Origin: Meiothermus sp.
GTDB lineage: Bacteria; Deinococcota; Deinococci; Deinococcales; Thermaceae
Reading direction: 5' to 3'
Assembly: GCF_026004075.1 (NCBI RefSeq)
Contig: NZ_BPIK01000001.1
Span: 1,652,041-1,716,040, forward strand
DNA length: 64,000 nt
In this document: one piece after another, positions 2,011-7,694 of the stretch
Layout: every line of letters begins with the position of its first letter
Numbering within the stretch: the stretch's first letter is position 1
Program-made: the position numbers and the translations under genes
Notes under the pieces: model-generated
The model's database searches: none
Seen by the model: the letters and a program-made list of their open reading frames with translations, nothing else
Told to the model about the DNA's origin: nothing

Positions 2011-2055
2011 TGGTGGGCTGTGCAGGAATCGAACCTGCAACCCACTGATTAAGAG
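2011..2055. repeat. attL: 45-bp duplicate of the tRNA-Lys 3' half
   Basis: The sequence from TGGTGGGCTG to GATTAAGAG is identical to 7398-7442. It ends in the anticodon loop, the usual crossover region for tRNA-targeting integrases. It is a tRNA fragment and not a functional tRNA, since the 5' half is missing. Confidence 0.93.
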
Positions 2056-2162
2056 AAGACCAAAAACCCCTCGGCTGCTCACGACTGCTTACGGATATGC
2101 CCTTGTTTATCGCAAAAATCAAGAGTGTGTTTCCGTGCACGTTCGGCTGTTTTCGGCTCCAT

Positions 2163-2191
2163 AAACCGTAAATAAACCGTAGAAAACCGTA
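2163..2191 (+). repeat. Candidate integrase arm sites, left end (three AAACCGTA copies)
   Basis: AAACCGTA occurs at 2163-2170, 2174-2181 and 2184-2191, about one helical turn apart. The same octamer recurs near the other end (7328-7335, with a partial copy at 7339-7346). Phased short repeats near both att sites are typical of integrase arm-type binding sites. The function is inferred from position. Confidence 0.6.
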
Positions 2192-2323
2192 GTGGTTTTG
2201 TGTCGTCCTGGTGCGGCTTGGTGTGCTATTCTCTAAAAAGAAAATCCCCTGGCCGAGAAGACCAGGAGCGCCTTGGACTGGCTACCTTGATTTTATCGGC
2301 CATAGGGGGCAGGAGGCAACCAC

Positions 2324-2908
2324 ATGGCCGAACTGTGGACAAATCCCAAAAATCCGGATGATGGTTTTCTGATAACCCGCTACCGCCTCGAGTTTTGGCG
2401 TGCGCTAATAGCGCACGCTCCCTCATGTCTGGCCTACCTGAGAGAGCGCGGCGTGGAGGCCTGGCTGGAGCGCTATGGCCTGCCACAGGAGCCTTACGGT
2501 ATCTGGGCGAAAGAGTACCTGAAAAATCAAGACCAATACTTGCCAGACTTCAGGGAGTTTGGGCTGGAACCCCCGAGTACCGAATCTTTATCCGATCGCT
2601 TCATGGCCTTTACCGGCACATTCGACCCACGCGTGATGAGCGCGAGTTCCTTCAGACAAATGGCTCATAAGGCAGTGGAGCAATACATAAAGGATGTTGA
2701 GAACGACTACCAGTACTGGGGCTGGCAAAAGACGCGCGTAAAATACAACCTTCAACACTTCACATGGCTGGCGTTGAGACTCGAGGGGCTGTCCTGGGCG
2801 GAAATAGCCGACCGCACAGACCCGCCGGTGGGCGAGGACGCGGTACGCAAGGCAGTAAACCGGCTTGCTGAGATGCTGGGGCTTACCGGACATTTGGCTG
2901 AGACCTAA
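2324..2908 (+). CDS. Hypothetical protein with C-terminal HTH
   Basis: A 194-aa protein, first gene of the element. I do not recognise the N-terminal 140 residues. Residues about 148-185 (LRLEGLSWAEIADRTD, then GEDAVRKAVNRLAEML) read like a helix-turn-helix of the sigma-70 region 4 or LuxR type, so DNA binding is likely. It begins about 270 bp after attL, beyond the arm-like repeats. It may be the regulator of the element. Confidence 0.55.
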   Translation: MAELWTNPKNPDDGFLITRYRLEFWRALIAHAPSCLAYLRERGVEAWLERYGLPQEPYGIWAKEYLKNQDQYLPDFREFGLEPPSTESLSDRFMAFTGTFDPRVMSASSFRQMAHKAVEQYIKDVENDYQYWGWQKTRVKYNLQHFTWLALRLEGLSWAEIADRTDPPVGEDAVRKAVNRLAEMLGLTGHLAET

Positions 2909-2949
2909 ATTTCCTTCAGTTTGAACGTCCACTTTCAGAACATGGGGGC

Positions 2950-3168
2950 ATGAACGAGTTACCCCCACTACTTACCGTTGAAGAAGTCCGGCGTTTGATT
3001 GGCCGTCACCGTGTTGGCCGCGACCAGTTGTACAAACTGGCGCGGCAGTATGGCATGGCCCTGGGCAAGAGGTACCTGATGCCGCGCCGCGTGGTGCTGG
3101 CCCTGCTTGAGGGCCGCCTTGACGAGCTCGAGGAGAAAAGCCCCGCTGGGCAAAGCGGGGCTGCGTGA
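2950..3168 (+). CDS. Small HTH DNA-binding protein, possible excisionase
   Basis: A 72-aa protein. LLTVEEVRRLIG, followed by GRDQLYKLARQYG and RYLMPRRVVLALLEG, matches the winged HTH_17/Xis fold in which a short helix pair is followed by a strand giving the arginine-rich wing. In integrative elements such proteins usually direct excision by bending att DNA. The assignment to excision is inferred from size, fold and the presence of an integrase. Confidence 0.6.
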   Translation: MNELPPLLTVEEVRRLIGRHRVGRDQLYKLARQYGMALGKRYLMPRRVVLALLEGRLDELEEKSPAGQSGAA

Positions 3169-3180
3169 GGTGCTGGCGTT

Positions 3181-3852
3181 ATGGGACAGATTTACTTTAG
3201 CACGGATGACTTGGCCGCCGCGCGCGTCACCCTCGAGGCCGCCGGATTCACGGTTGAAACACCACCGCCTGCTGTCCTGGAGCACAACGTCTTGCTGGTG
3301 GCCTACCATCCCGAGACCTTCGAGGGCTATCTGCTCACGCCGCAAGAGATCAAGCTGGTGGCCTATCAGGGACTGGTGACGCTGGACTCCGGTTATCCCG
3401 ATCCGCGTCCGCGGTGGCAGCGCGACGAACGCCGCCGCGCGGAGAAGTACGTTGAAGCCGCACTCGCGCGTGCGATTGTCGAGGTGCAGAGCGCCGCGCC
3501 TGGCAACCGGAACAACGTCCTGTCTCGAGTCGCGTTCAGTCTTGGACAGCTTGAGAACCTGGGGCTTGACCGGATGCGCGTTCAGGACGCACTCGAGGAA
3601 GCCGCGCTGTCTATCGGTTTGAGCCTCCAGGAGGCCCGCTGCACCATCCGCCGGGGCCTCGAGAAAGGGAGCCAGGCCCCCCGTGACCTGCCGGATAACC
3701 GGTCAGGTTTTGGAGCATTTTGGAGTTTTGGAGCACCCCCCCACTCCAAAACCTTTAGCGATAATGATGGGCATTCTTCTGGTTTTGGAGTTTTGGAGCA
3801 TAGAACTAAGAAGCCGGTGCTCCGATTCCAAAAACCGCGACTGGGGAGGTAG
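3181..3852 (+). CDS. Primase-associated helical protein (replication module)
   Basis: A 223-aa protein. Residues about 90-165 (GNRNNVLSRVAFSLGQL, then LEEAALSIGLSLQEARCTIRRGLEKG) resemble the helical domain found C-terminal to prim-pol primases of plasmids and phages. The N-terminal 85 residues are unrecognised and lack obvious catalytic motifs, so it may be a primase remnant or accessory. The C-terminal tail from about residue 177 is encoded by TTTTGGAG repeats and is low-complexity. Its stop overlaps the GTG/ATG start of the ATPase gene. Confidence 0.55.
   Translation: MGQIYFSTDDLAAARVTLEAAGFTVETPPPAVLEHNVLLVAYHPETFEGYLLTPQEIKLVAYQGLVTLDSGYPDPRPRWQRDERRRAEKYVEAALARAIVEVQSAAPGNRNNVLSRVAFSLGQLENLGLDRMRVQDALEEAALSIGLSLQEARCTIRRGLEKGSQAPRDLPDNRSGFGAFWSFGAPPHSKTFSDNDGHSSGFGVLEHRTKKPVLRFQKPRLGR
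3708..3798 (+). repeat. TTTTGGAG repeat cluster A (iteron-like)
   Basis: Five direct copies (3708-3715, 3718-3725, 3726-3733, 3783-3790, 3791-3798) and one inverted copy (3744-3751) of TTTTGGAG lie in the 3' end of the preceding gene. Some copies are followed by CA or CAT. The same octamer forms cluster B 1.1 kb downstream. Confidence 0.85.
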
Positions 3853-3854
3853 TG

Positions 3855-5042
3855 ATGGGACTCCAGCGCATTGACCTATCCTCCCCCCTGCCTGCTATCA
3901 CCTGGCTGTGGCAGGGCCTCATCCCTCAGGGGTTCGTGACGGTTATTGGAGCGCTGCCCGGGGAGGGCAAGACCGCTTTCATGTCCGGCCTGGCCTGGCA
4001 GTGCACGCGCCCGCGCGGGGAGGTGCTGGGCAGGCCGGTGCTGTCCACCTCGCCGGTGGTTTATGTCGACTTTGACGCGTCCACCGGGGATGGCCGCGCC
4101 ATCCGGGGCTGGCTGGAGAAGCACAAGGCCGCCCATCCCGACGGGGATATGGGCCGGTTTACCCTCCTGGAACCGGATGGGGAAACTTACGGTCTGGGAG
4201 AAGACGAGCTGGCGCTGCTGCGGGAGGTAGTCCTCGAGGTCGGGGCGGGGCTGGTGGTGGTGGACAGTTTTATGGCCGCCTTCCCGATGGACACGATAAA
4301 AGCGCACTTGGTGCAGGGGGCCTTCTACCACCTGCGCCGCCTGGCGCTGGAGACCGGGGCCGCCGTGGTGGTGATTGACCACCTGCCCAAACCGATGGCC
4401 GGGGAGAGAGCGGGGGCACGGGGCCTTCTGGGGAGCATCGCCAAAACCGCACAGGCCCGGGCGGTGCACATCCTGACGCGCGTCCCCCCTGCCGAGGTGG
4501 AGGGCCGCCACCTCCTCAGGTGGGAAGTACTCAAAAACTCCTTTGCGCCGGTAGTGGAGCCTTTCGGCGTGGAGCTTCTGTTCCAGGACGGGCAGGTGAG
4601 GTTCCTCGAGGCCGACCTTCCCGAGGGGGGCAATCCGCGCAAGGACAAGGCCCGCGCCGCCGTCCTCGAGGCCCTACAGGGCGGCGCGGTTGTGCCCAAG
4701 GCCGACCTGGTACAGGCCATCATCCAGGCCGCGAACGTCCACGCCAAGACCGCCGAGCGCTACTTGGACGAAATAGCGGACGCTGTAGGACTCCAGAAGG
4801 CCGTCCTCCCCGGCCAGGGGAGGCCGGTGGGCTACCGACTGCCTGAAGCGCCCCCTCTGCCGGGGGAGGTTTTGGAGCACTCCCATATCTCTATCTCTAT
4901 GCTCCAAAACTCCAAAACACCACAATCGCCGTCAGGGACGCAAAATGTTTTGGAGCAGGGGGATGCTCCAAAACTCCAAAATGCTCCAAAACCTGAGCGC
5001 CTGGAGGACGGTGGGGGGGAGTGGGAGGTCATTGACCTATGA
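3855..5042 (+). CDS. RecA-like (RepA/AAA_25 type) ATPase
   Basis: About 395 aa with Walker A GALPGEGKT (residues 32-40), Walker B LVVVDS (133-138) and a downstream VVVIDHLPKP strand typical of RepA/RSF1010-like hexameric helicases and AAA_25 ATPases. Residues about 265-330 look like a winged helix (VLEALQGG, KADLVQAI, TAERYLDEI). The C-terminal 50 residues are encoded by the repeat cluster. A GTG at 3852 and an ATG at 3855 are both possible; GGGGAGGT precedes them. Together with the previous gene it probably drives replication or mobilisation of the excised element. Confidence 0.8.
   Translation: MGLQRIDLSSPLPAITWLWQGLIPQGFVTVIGALPGEGKTAFMSGLAWQCTRPRGEVLGRPVLSTSPVVYVDFDASTGDGRAIRGWLEKHKAAHPDGDMGRFTLLEPDGETYGLGEDELALLREVVLEVGAGLVVVDSFMAAFPMDTIKAHLVQGAFYHLRRLALETGAAVVVIDHLPKPMAGERAGARGLLGSIAKTAQARAVHILTRVPPAEVEGRHLLRWEVLKNSFAPVVEPFGVELLFQDGQVRFLEADLPEGGNPRKDKARAAVLEALQGGAVVPKADLVQAIIQAANVHAKTAERYLDEIADAVGLQKAVLPGQGRPVGYRLPEAPPLPGEVLEHSHISISMLQNSKTPQSPSGTQNVLEQGDAPKLQNAPKPERLEDGGGEWEVIDL
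4870..4991 (+). repeat. TTTTGGAG repeat cluster B (iteron-like)
   Basis: TTTTGGAG occurs at 4870-4877 and 4948-4955, and its complement CTCCAAAA at 4902-4909, 4910-4917, 4966-4973, 4974-4981 and 4984-4991: seven copies in 122 bp, mostly inverted relative to cluster A. They lie in the 3' end of the ATPase gene. An intervening stretch (CATATCTCTATCTCTAT) is AT-rich for this genome. Confidence 0.85.
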
Positions 5043-5344
5043 ACCCCTGGGCCGCCCTCTTCTCCCGCCTGCCGGAGGTGGTGGCCCGCCTCGAGGCGCA
5101 TCCCCATCCGCTGCTGCTGGTGGAGGTGGACGGTGAGGTCGTGGCCCGGCTGGTGCGCCCGAGCCGGGACGACCTGGCCCGCCACAGCCGGTGGCCGGGG
5201 ATGCCGCGCCTCACCGCTGAAGAGTGGCTGCACGAGGCGCTGTCCAGGGTGATGAGCTATTATCCCGCACCGCGCCACAGCATCACCTTGCTGGCGGGCC
5301 CTCATCCTGTGGCGGTGGTGCGGCGCAAGCAGGAGGCCGCCTAG
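5039..5344 (+). CDS. Hypothetical protein
   Basis: A 101-aa protein overlapping the ATPase stop by 4 bp (ATGA), so it is probably translationally coupled. The N-terminal part (LLLVEVDGEVVARLVRPS) looks like beta strands and the middle (TAEEWLHEALSRVM) like a helix. No family recognised. Confidence 0.6.
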   Translation: MNPWAALFSRLPEVVARLEAHPHPLLLVEVDGEVVARLVRPSRDDLARHSRWPGMPRLTAEEWLHEALSRVMSYYPAPRHSITLLAGPHPVAVVRRKQEAA

Positions 5345-5369
5345 ATGAGGGGGGATGGGAGTTGAAAAT

Positions 5370-5633
5370 ATGGCAACCATCGCACAAGTAACACGCTTAC
5401 GCCGCCGAAAGCCCGGAGACCTGAAGCAACTAAAAGCCGTTTTGTGGAATGTCCTCATCGAGGCCGAGTCCATCGCGCTTGACCGGACTCTGGAGGCCGC
5501 CACACGTCTGAAAGCCATTCACGGCTTGTCTACAGCGGCTGGAACCTATCTGAAGACGCTTGAGCTCGCCGATCTCGAGGCCCGGCTCGAGCAGTTGGAA
5601 GAGCGTGTGCAAGCACTAGGAGGTCAGGTATGA
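5370..5633 (+). CDS. Small coiled-coil hypothetical protein
   Basis: Starting at the ATG at 5370 (GGGAG 9 bp upstream) it gives 87 aa; an in-frame ATG at 5355 is an alternative. The C-terminal half (LELADLEARLEQLEERVQAL) is a short coiled coil with heptad leucines. It overlaps the next gene by 4 bp. Function unknown. Confidence 0.6.
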   Translation: MATIAQVTRLRRRKPGDLKQLKAVLWNVLIEAESIALDRTLEAATRLKAIHGLSTAAGTYLKTLELADLEARLEQLEERVQALGGQV

Positions 5634-5854
5634 AAAGCAGGATAGACAGACTCTTTGAGCGACTGACCCGTCCCGAGACCACCATCACGATAGAACGCTC
5701 TTACGGCAAACCATCACAGCCCCTCACGCGGGAGCAGGAGGCCGAACTCGAGCGGCTGTGTGAGCAGGTGCGCCGGGAGCACCCGCACGCGATTTTGGTT
5801 GTCCGCTATACCAGGGATGGCAAGGTCACGGTCACACCTACTGGTGAGGGTTGA
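5630..5854 (+). CDS. Hypothetical protein
   Basis: A 74-aa protein beginning within the last codons of the previous gene. It has a basic start (MKSRIDRLFERL), a helix (REQEAELERLCEQVRREH) and a C-terminal strand pair (ILVVRYTRDGKVTVT). No family recognised. A strong hairpin follows 11 bp after its stop and may end this transcript. Confidence 0.55.
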   Translation: MKSRIDRLFERLTRPETTITIERSYGKPSQPLTREQEAELERLCEQVRREHPHAILVVRYTRDGKVTVTPTGEG

Positions 5855-5864
5855 CCGGCTCACC

Positions 5865-5897
5865 ACCGGGTGCTGGAGTCCACCTCCAGCACCCGGT
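5865..5897 (+). terminator. Strong GC-rich hairpin, possible transcript end
   Basis: ACCGGGTGCTGGAG (5865-5878) pairs perfectly with CTCCAGCACCCGGT (5884-5897) across a 5-nt loop. There is no T-run, so it is not a classical terminator. It separates the 2324-5854 gene run from the separately promoted 5959 gene. Confidence 0.5.
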
Positions 5898-5922
5898 CAA
5901 AATGCGCACTTATTTACGAAAG

Positions 5923-5952
5923 TACGTTTTTCGGTAGGCAACCGTGTATAAT
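5923..5952 (+). promoter_or_regulatory. Promoter with consensus -10 box, leaderless start
   Basis: TATAAT at 5947-5952 is a perfect -10 element. The ATG at 5959 sits 7 bp downstream, where transcription should start, and there is no ribosome binding site. The -35 region is poor (around ACGTTT at 5924). This fits a leaderless mRNA, common in the Deinococcus-Thermus phylum. Confidence 0.65.
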
Positions 5953-5958
5953 CCCGAT

Positions 5959-6192
5959 ATGCCAAAAGGTGAGAAGTTGCATCTGGTGAGACCCCCACGT
6001 GAGGCCCTGGCCGCCCGGTGGGGTTTGCGGCTGTTCGAGGATGGGGAGACCGGGGAGCGGGTTTACATCCGCGCCCCTGCTGTGGTGCTCGAGCGGTTCA
6101 AAGCGCTACCCCCGGACAAGCGGGGTGAGGTGGTGATGGTCGGTCTCGAGGCTTTAGGACTGGAGGTGCAGGATGGCAAAAAAGCGCGGTAA
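5959..6192 (+). CDS. Hypothetical protein upstream of integrase
   Basis: A 77-aa protein from the ATG at 5959 (MPKGEKLHLV). An upstream ATG at 5944 overlaps the -10 box and is rejected. The sequence has no recognised domain; REALAARWGLRLFED and VYIRAPAVVLERFKALP are likely helix and strand. Its 3' end overlaps the integrase gene by 20 bp in another frame, so the two are co-transcribed from the leaderless promoter. It may regulate the integrase. Confidence 0.6.
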   Translation: MPKGEKLHLVRPPREALAARWGLRLFEDGETGERVYIRAPAVVLERFKALPPDKRGEVVMVGLEALGLEVQDGKKAR

Positions 6193-7321
6193 GGGTGGGG
6201 GTACAACCTACTTGCACAAAGCATCAGGCCGCTGGTGCGCCGAACTGAACCTGGGTTATGACGGGGACGGCAAACCGCTAAGGGTGCGGAGCTACCACCC
6301 GACCCGCAAAGAGGCCGAGGCCTGGCTTGCCGAGCAGGTGGCCCTCTACCACAAGGGACTGCTGGCCGACCCCTCCACCGTCACGCTTCAGGAATGGGCC
6401 GAACGCTGGCTCGAGCGCAAGCGCCGGGAGGTCAGGCCGCGCACCTTCGAGTCCTACCGGTACGAGCTGGGGCTGGTGCTGCCCACCCTGGGCAAGCTGC
6501 CCTTGCAAAAAATCACACCGTCACATATCCGTGCCCTGGTGGACAATCTCTTGCAGACCCGAAAACCCCGCACCGCCCGAGCAGTGCGCACCCGGCTGCA
6601 CGCCATATTCGAGGAAGCACTGAACCTCGAGGTCATTCACCGCAACCCTGTATCCCCTGTGAAGGTCAAACTACCCCGAGGCTCCACTACCGACCGCGCC
6701 GGTAGATCGCTGGAGGCTCACGAGGCCGCCGCCCTGCTTACGGCTTTGGATACCTACAAGGACGAGAGAATCGCCCTCTCGTTGCGCCTCATGCTCAACC
6801 TGGGGCTACGGGTGGGTGAGTGCCTGGGCCTACAGTGGCAAGACCTTGACCTCGAGGCCGGAACCCTCACCATCCGCCGGGCCTGGAGTGATGGACGGCT
6901 CACAGAACCCAAGACCCCATCGAGCCGCCGCACCCTACCCGTCCCGCACAGCACCCTGGAGCGGCTGAGGGCCTATCACGCCATGTGGGAAGACCGGCTG
7001 GGCGAGACCCCACCCGCTACGCTGTGGCTATTCCCTGGGAACGACCCCACAAGGCCCCTGGACTACCGGGCCCCCGCTCATGCCCTCCGCCGAATCGTGA
7101 AGGCCCTGGGCATTCCGCCCTTGCGGGTGCACGACCTCAGACACTCTTACGGTAGCCACCTGCTGGCGAACGGTGCACCCCTTGAGCTTGTGTCCGAGCG
7201 CATGGGGCATGCGAACGCCAACATCACCCTCTCGATTTACCGACACGTCCTCGAGCACGAGCGGCAGGGGTGGGTGGTGGATGTGGAGACCCTACTTTCA
7301 CGACCACGAGCTAAGGCCTGA
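6173..7321 (+). CDS. int: Tyrosine site-specific integrase
   Basis: A 382-aa phage-type integrase. The N-terminal 60 residues look like an arm-binding AP2-like domain (WCAELNLGYDGDGKPLRVRS), about 70-160 form the SAM-like core-binding domain, and 175-370 the catalytic domain. Visible catalytic residues: R213 (GLRVGECLGL), probable K247, H320 and R323 (HDLRHSYGSHLL), H346 (MGHAN) and nucleophile Y356 (SIYRHV). It reads towards tRNA-Lys, its attachment gene, 76 bp away. It should catalyse recombination between attP and tRNA-Lys attB. Confidence 0.95.
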   Translation: MAKKRGKGGGTTYLHKASGRWCAELNLGYDGDGKPLRVRSYHPTRKEAEAWLAEQVALYHKGLLADPSTVTLQEWAERWLERKRREVRPRTFESYRYELGLVLPTLGKLPLQKITPSHIRALVDNLLQTRKPRTARAVRTRLHAIFEEALNLEVIHRNPVSPVKVKLPRGSTTDRAGRSLEAHEAAALLTALDTYKDERIALSLRLMLNLGLRVGECLGLQWQDLDLEAGTLTIRRAWSDGRLTEPKTPSSRRTLPVPHSTLERLRAYHAMWEDRLGETPPATLWLFPGNDPTRPLDYRAPAHALRRIVKALGIPPLRVHDLRHSYGSHLLANGAPLELVSERMGHANANITLSIYRHVLEHERQGWVVDVETLLSRPRAKA

Positions 7322-7327
7322 ATCCAT

Positions 7328-7346
7328 AAACCGTAAAATCACCGTA
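7328..7346 (+). repeat. Candidate integrase arm sites, right end
   Basis: AAACCGTA at 7328-7335 and a partial copy TCACCGTA at 7339-7346, 11 bp apart, immediately after the integrase stop. They match the three copies near attL in sequence and phasing. Confidence 0.6.
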
Positions 7347-7354
7347 AAAGGACA

Positions 7355-7387
7355 AACCCGAGGGTAAGCATCCCTCGGGTTTTTCTC
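7355..7387 (+). terminator. Terminator of integrase gene, probably bidirectional
   Basis: AACCCGAGGG (7355-7364) pairs with CCCTCGGGTT (7372-7381), followed by TTTTCT on the plus strand. On the minus strand the stem is followed by a weaker T-rich tail, so it may also end the tRNA-Lys transcript. Confidence 0.85.
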
Positions 7388-7397
7388 GTCCTGGACT

Positions 7398-7473
<76 letters not shown>

Positions 7474-7485
7474 AAGCAAAACACA

Positions 7486-7514
7486 AATATAGCGACAGTA
7501 TCACCTTCTGTCAA
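7486..7514 (-). promoter_or_regulatory. Promoter of tRNA-Lys
   Basis: On the minus strand, TTGACA (7514-7509) and TATATT (7491-7486) are separated by exactly 17 bp and lie 12 bp before the tRNA 5' end. Confidence 0.9.
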
Positions 7515-7564
7515 TATGGGGGGTGCGTCCAGATGTATGGCCAGGGCCACCCAATTACACCCCC

Positions 7565-7593
7565 TTGACGAGAAGGACTAAACTAGCTACTAT
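7565..7593 (+). promoter_or_regulatory. Promoter of tRNA-Leu
   Basis: TTGACG (7565-7570), a 17-bp spacer and TACTAT (7588-7593), 14 bp before the tRNA 5' end. Confidence 0.85.
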
Positions 7594-7607
7594 TTTGCTT
7601 GCCCTGA

Positions 7608-7694
7608 GCCGGGATGGCGGAATTGGTAGACGCACATGATTCAGGGTCATGCGCCCGCAAGGGTGTGCAGGTTCAAGTCCTGTTCCCGGCACCA
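7608..7694 (+). tRNA. tRNA-Leu (anticodon CAG)
   Basis: An 87-nt class II tRNA: acceptor GCCGGGA/TCCCGGC, anticodon stem CATGA/TCATG around TTCAGGG (anticodon CAG), a long variable arm (CGCCCGCAAGGGTGT), T-arm GGTTCAAGTCC and encoded CCA. Confidence 0.95.

Follow-up and report, generated by a model that had tools for sequence, protein, structure and literature searches.

In SaPI rep-ori and SCCmec, the helicase gene of an initiator-helicase and primase module has short iterons at its 3' end, and the C-terminal domains of SaPI Rep and SCCmec Cch2 bind iterons directly downstream of their own genes, which for Cch2 was shown with the isolated domain (PMC7581432). In Sulfolobus, pRN1 requires an element of ~100 bp after its primase-helicase-winged-helix gene (PMC4234260). 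A prim-pol survey proposes that winged helices of prim-pol/helicase proteins recognize origins (PMC5862659). A counter-case is ICETh2 of T. thermophilus HB27 (Ppol, Hel and Int2, in tRNA-Val), whose family occurs in Thermus and Meiothermus. Its description reports little or no replication after excision, a dispensable Ppol and a loss of the helicase that blunted only the UV-induced rise of the circle (PMC7693054).

Here we describe two arrays of a short repeat (A and B) in the helicase region of an integrated element. The locus shares with SaPI rep-ori and SCCmec Cch2 the module of initiator-helicase and primase, a helicase gene with short iterons at its 3' end and, as predicted here, the use of a C-terminal domain as reader (PMC7581432). 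It differs in that its helicase is RepA/RecA-like (AAA_25) and not of the Rep/Cch type, and in that the iterons lie inside coding tails, in two four-site arrays that mirror each other and usually flank the gene. The element may work like a SaPI/SCC-type origin, yet it is not a member of that group. With pRN1 it has in common a ~100-bp unit, low in sequence conservation but conserved in architecture, next to a replication gene that encodes a winged helix (PMC4234260), whereas pRN1 has a single-copy stem-loop and the present sites are repeated in two inverted copies. ICETh2 has a similar gene set and integration style (PMC7693054). Measured against ICETh2-like elements, integrase, tRNA att and helicase are present and the prim-pol is replaced by a short PriCT-like protein; we did not find the HB27 ICETh2 sequence itself in the genomes compared.

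The closest solved relative of the helicase is the RepA-type hexameric helicase of RSF1010 (IncQ), which was both its best PDB match by sequence profile (5e-7) and the top Foldseek match of its model (TMt 0.71-0.76). The oriV of RSF1010 contains two inverted priming sites, ssiA and ssiB, reminiscent of the mirror arrays; its iterons are direct repeats bound by a separate protein, RepC, and its RepA has no winged helix. Pfam, NCBIfam and PHROGs gave no match to RepC, the RepB' primase or the MobA region among the element's genes. Iterons beside or inside initiator genes are already known, for example embedded in coding sequence at lambda ori in gene O and in lactococcal phage rep genes, and P4 has two separate iteron regions, ori1 and crr. 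To our knowledge, none of the lambda, lactococcal phage and P4 origins has a mirror-image pair that combines conserved geometry with variable words, and in the open-access literature found, a mirror pair with fixed geometry and changing words that track a winged helix is undescribed.

The integrated element and its gene set

The stretch of DNA analysed (64 kb, hereafter the window) contains a 5.4-kb integrant in the tRNA-Lys of a Thermus-related bacterium. A repeat search found a 45-nt direct repeat with 100% identity (2011-2055 and 7398-7442), the right copy of which falls within a tRNA-Lys(ctt) located by tRNA scan (7398-7473). The features of the element are:

2011..7442, no strand, integrated element of 5.4 kb, bounded by 45-bp direct repeats
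2164..2191, + strand, AACCGTA repeats by the left att (second set at 7329-7346)
2950..3168, + strand, small HTH protein, excisionase-like (weak phrog_66 / HTH_17 matches)
3181..3852, + strand, primase-like ORF with array A in its disordered tail; its C-terminal domain is common to the prim-pols of relatives
3852..5042, + strand, AAA_25 / RSF1010 RepA-like hexameric helicase, the ATPase ORF (Pfam AAA_25, 1.5e-20)
4635..4838, + strand, predicted winged helix, residues 262-329 (AlphaFold model), the proposed array reader
4851..5039, + strand, disordered helicase tail that holds array B and ends EWEVIDL
6173..7321, + strand, tyrosine integrase (profile match)

Besides the integrase, the largest part of the element consists of the primase-like ORF, the helicase and the arrays. 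Using Pfam, PHROGs and NCBIfam, we detected no capsid, transfer, transposase or partition genes in the 5.4 kb. The original prediction had named an origin, a partition or a mobilisation site; the origin-type role is best supported, and the other two have no gene support in the element. Centromeres also show iteron-like arrays of element-specific sequence, but a centromere-like partition or stability site is hardly credible for an element that is integrated and carries no ParA/ParB/ParM-like gene in its 5.4 kb.

The product of gene 2950 is probably an excisionase. This gene is patchy and found in just five loci, and gene 2324 has a homologue in none of the relatives examined. Both HTH proteins had been put forward as binders of the arrays, which is unlikely given that the ATPase is always present; they were rejected on co-occurrence across loci. 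The AACCGTA repeats are probably arm sites of the integrase, separate from the TTTTGGAG arrays, and because they already lie near both att ends, we ruled out TTTTGGAG as an arm site. Directly left of the element, at 1193-1997, the window contains two overlapping ORFs that resemble a frameshifted insertion-sequence transposase.

Two mirror-image arrays in coding tails

Thirteen copies of the octamer TTTTGGAG had been predicted at 3708-4991, and every one was recovered at its position, six in cluster A and seven in cluster B (starts and strands in the list below). The whole window contains 17 copies against 2.03 expected, a number attained by 0 of 100 shuffles, and the four copies outside the clusters are near the chance number (2.0). 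For 13 copies in 1,284 bp, where the chance expectation is ~0.04, the Poisson P is ~1e-28. A genome-wide count, suggested along with the prediction, found tandem pairs (TTTTGGAG N0-2 TTTTGGAG) confined to this element, with six in the 3.25-Mb genome against 0 matches for a reversed-pattern control. The sites are:

3708..3717, + strand, array A site 1, TTTTGGAGCA
3718..3725, + strand, array A extra octamer between sites 1 and 2, absent at that spacing in relatives
3726..3735, + strand, array A site 2
3744..3751, - strand, array A site 3, inverted
3758..3772, no strand, array A inner imperfect dyad (weak)
3783..3790, + strand, array A site 4
3791..3800, + strand, array A extra tandem octamer after site 4
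4870..4877, + strand, lone octamer outside the mirrored unit, adjoining a low-stability stretch at ~4866-4935
4902..4909, - strand, array B extra tandem octamer
4910..4917, - strand, array B site 4
4928..4941, no strand, array B inner dyad, GCCGTCAGGGACGC
4948..4955, + strand, array B site 3, inverted relative to array B
4966..4973, - strand, array B site 2
4974..4981, - strand, array B extra octamer
4984..4991, - strand, array B site 1, read on the - strand

Arrays A (3708-3798) and B (4902-4991) are copies of one ~90-bp unit and mirror each other. The octamer offsets are 0, 10, 18, 36 (-), 75 and 83 in array A and 0, 10, 18, 36 (-), 74 and 82 in array B read in reverse. The clusters had been described as mostly direct in A and mostly inverted in B, which is correct yet understated, as B mirrors the spacing of A within one base; the mirror relation of two units with conserved geometry was missed in that first reading. 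The unit consists of four fixed sites in the order + + - + (offsets 0, 18, 43 inverted, and 75), to which each array of this element adds two extra octamers, one separating sites 1 and 2 and the other following site 4. The inner dyad scored 115 against 102 +/- 3.4 in simple shuffles, which is suggestive at most, and the inner cores of A and B differ.

Together the arrays form an 86-nt inverted repeat that is 80% complementary (3700-3785 and 4914-4999, with 1,128 nt between). An imperfect inverted repeat of this length around a single gene could mark recombination or transposition ends, for example of an ATPase cassette, or else integrase arm sites. We regard this as very improbable: no transposase lies between the arrays, as inverton or transposon ends would require, the arrays belong to both coding tails, the inner cores within the one element are unlike each other, two related elements (L192 and L200, below) have arrays that do not flank the gene, and the integrase has its separate AACCGTA repeats.

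As had been noted, the clusters are translated: array A encodes the tail of the upstream primase-like protein and array B that of the ATPase. In the AlphaFold model of the helicase (12-member alignment), the RecA core is confident, a helical domain and wing occupy residues 262-329, and the protein is disordered from residue 334 on (pLDDT ~35). The tail of the primase-like protein encoded by array A DNA (residues ~174-215) is also predicted to be disordered, with pLDDT below 50 over most of both tails; Foldseek gave nothing significant for this protein. An acidic end after array B is common to several relatives (EWEVIDL here, EVEL/EVEI elsewhere). The reading frame across the arrays varies between elements, and thus the constraint acts on the DNA.

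Easily melted DNA adjoins the repeats. The least stable 50-mer of the element lies within array A (start 3761) and the fourth least stable overlaps the inner end of array B, although the AT content is merely moderate (60%). No DnaA boxes were found in the element.

Geometry and site words in related elements

Because the octamer word is private to the element, we searched for the array by its geometry and not by its sequence. The scan is sequence-free, covers both orientations and has a maximum score of 40, with shuffled loci reaching at most 35. Both arrays scored 36-40 of 40 in the window and in 10 of 13 related Deinococcota elements (L190, L191, L192, L193, L195, L196, L197, L198, L199 and L200; L197 and L198 are near-identical). 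L202 and L194 each have a single clear array and a partial second one, and the array of L203 is degenerate. The site word is TTTTGGAACA in L190 and L191, TTTTGGGCCA in L195 and L197-L199, TTTGACGACA in L192 (T. brockianus), TTTGATGCA in L193 and L194, TTTGATGAA in L200, TTTTCCGCAA in L196 and TTTAGCGCAA in L202. No homologous cluster of the literal TTTTGGAG was found across the phylum, IMG/VR and the genome collection, and the IMG/VR matches are single. The original prediction had counted absence of the octamer from relatives against itself; the clusters are indeed absent, but the objection fails, as the relatives have the same array with another word, which emerged when the corresponding position was searched for repeated words of any sequence.

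Protein searches of plasmids and phages with the helicases of the window, L193, L196, L197 and L205 returned nothing or distant phage genes, and a profile search of genome contigs returned T. brockianus alone. Att-type direct repeats were found in six elements, that of the window among them, each at another tRNA gene (Lys, Val, Met, Ala, Arg and Phe). The ATPase with the C-terminal winged helix is the sole gene that accompanies every array. The primase type differs: some elements have an AEP, L193 and L194 apparently a CHC2/DnaG-like protein (by reading the sequence), and the window, L200 and L202 a short PriCT-like one.

In L200, the two arrays converge side by side at the 3' end of the ATPase gene, ~60 bp apart, and in L192 they stand head-to-head beyond the ATPase gene. 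The inverted pairing therefore persists without an intervening gene. These two elements also bear on whether the arrays are operators through which the helicase, or else one of the element's HTH proteins, represses or times the replication operon, in place of an origin. Array A ends ~50 bp ahead of the helicase start and could control the helicase, and iteron-mediated autoregulation by initiators is common. We nevertheless consider an operator role unlikely, since array B, in mirror orientation, sits at the 3' end of the gene, both arrays of L200 and L192 lie at or past that end, and a mirror pair with fixed four-site spacing exceeds what an operator needs.

It is also improbable that the arrays are structured single-stranded DNA, with a hairpin of sites 2 and 3 and an inner hairpin whose stems are the repeats, as in RSF1010 ssi or in the ~100-bp stem-loop of the pRN1 origin with its low sequence but conserved structure (PMC4234260). 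The arrays of L195 and L190 fold better than shuffles (z -4.3 and -4.5) and array B of the window somewhat so (z -2.8), but array A of the window folds no better than chance (z -0.9). Conservation is no lower at sites 1 and 4 than at sites 2 and 3, site 3 of L190 changes without compensation in site 2, and site 2 is the first to decay in L196 and L202. Such stems would also leave the covariation with the winged helix (below) unexplained.

Further repeats were noted alongside these elements. L195 has a third array (3452-3540) with the mixed word TTTCGTGCC / TTTTGGGCC, ~3.4 kb upstream of the main pair on the same contig. L234 contains degenerate TTTTGGGCCA-type arrays at 2058 (-) and 5092 (+) with a helicase fragment alone detected, and is probably a decaying element. 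In G099, TTTTGGAGTTTTTTGGAG occurs near the ends of six contigs (L012-L017), probably as one repeated element that breaks the assembly, and is unrelated to the arrays.

Proposed site recognition and origin function

We compared site similarity with protein similarity in ten non-redundant elements, using 10-nt sites anchored by hand on TTT. Site similarity did not follow the ATPase core (r -0.06, p 0.62) but did follow the winged helix (r 0.41, p 0.006) and, within it, the recognition helix (r 0.53, p 0.001), and the partial correlation with the core held constant was r 0.61 (p 5e-5); the label shuffling used corrects only partly for relatedness. L200 is the clearest case: its ATPase core groups with L195 and L203, but in recognition helix (RWAASAL) and in sites (TTTGATGAA) it resembles L193 and L194 (RRAASEAL and RQAAPAL; TTTGATGCA). 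With a small sample and hand-anchored sites, the covariation is strong support rather than proof for the predicted binding of the sites by the helicase's own winged helix.

We consider it likely that the two clusters form one bipartite iteron-type origin of the excised element, read by the winged helix of the helicase, because the sites, the low-stability DNA, the replicative-type helicase and the primase-like partner all fit. Short repeats at regular spacing lie beside a replication gene, as in iteron-type origins, and a function as origin is suggested by analogy with SaPI, SCCmec and pRN1. After excision, the helicase would assemble on the arrays through recognition of the sites by its winged helix, melt the neighbouring low-stability DNA and load on the strands, where the primase of the element would prime, plausibly with one array per direction. 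The arrays may be placed in gene ends because disordered tails tolerate constraint on the DNA. Sites and winged helix that change together would give each element a private code without cross-talk with neighbours.

A more specific form of the origin reading is tentative, and we think it somewhat doubtful as a whole. Both arrays of the matched mirror pair would be needed, each loading one helicase ring that faces the other across the helicase gene (or across ~60 bp in L200), to give a symmetric two-fork origin, and the word rewritten together with the winged helix would be an incompatibility code that separates co-resident elements.

The arrays offer a concrete candidate origin for ICETh2-like prim-pol/helicase elements, for which the passages covered name none, and a candidate site for the origin recognition by winged helices that in those passages was a proposal without a site; neither the ICETh2 paper (PMC7693054) nor the prim-pol survey (PMC5862659) contains the word iteron. 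The elements also provide a natural series, in which about seven site words go with about ten winged helices, an initiator-helicase recognition code open to swapping.

The arrays are not universal to AAA_25 genes, because gene-end clusters are absent in four phages with AAA_25-type genes (three Gordonia and one Desulfofustis). Three more distant loci have word clusters in the same place as the arrays, without the mirror geometry. In L204, GGGGATGACC directly follows the AAA_25 helicase gene. In L205, TTGCACCAA and TTACACCAA alternate at 7448-7664, inside the tail of an AAA_25 gene that follows a relative of the window's primase-like protein; a search of this cluster for the mirror geometry did not find it. 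In L207, a viral contig from IMG/VR, ten copies of AACCGCGCC in mixed orientation (5736-6040) lie in the tail of a fused primase-RecA helicase ORF, which suggests that origin-like clusters in helicase tails exist outside Deinococcota.
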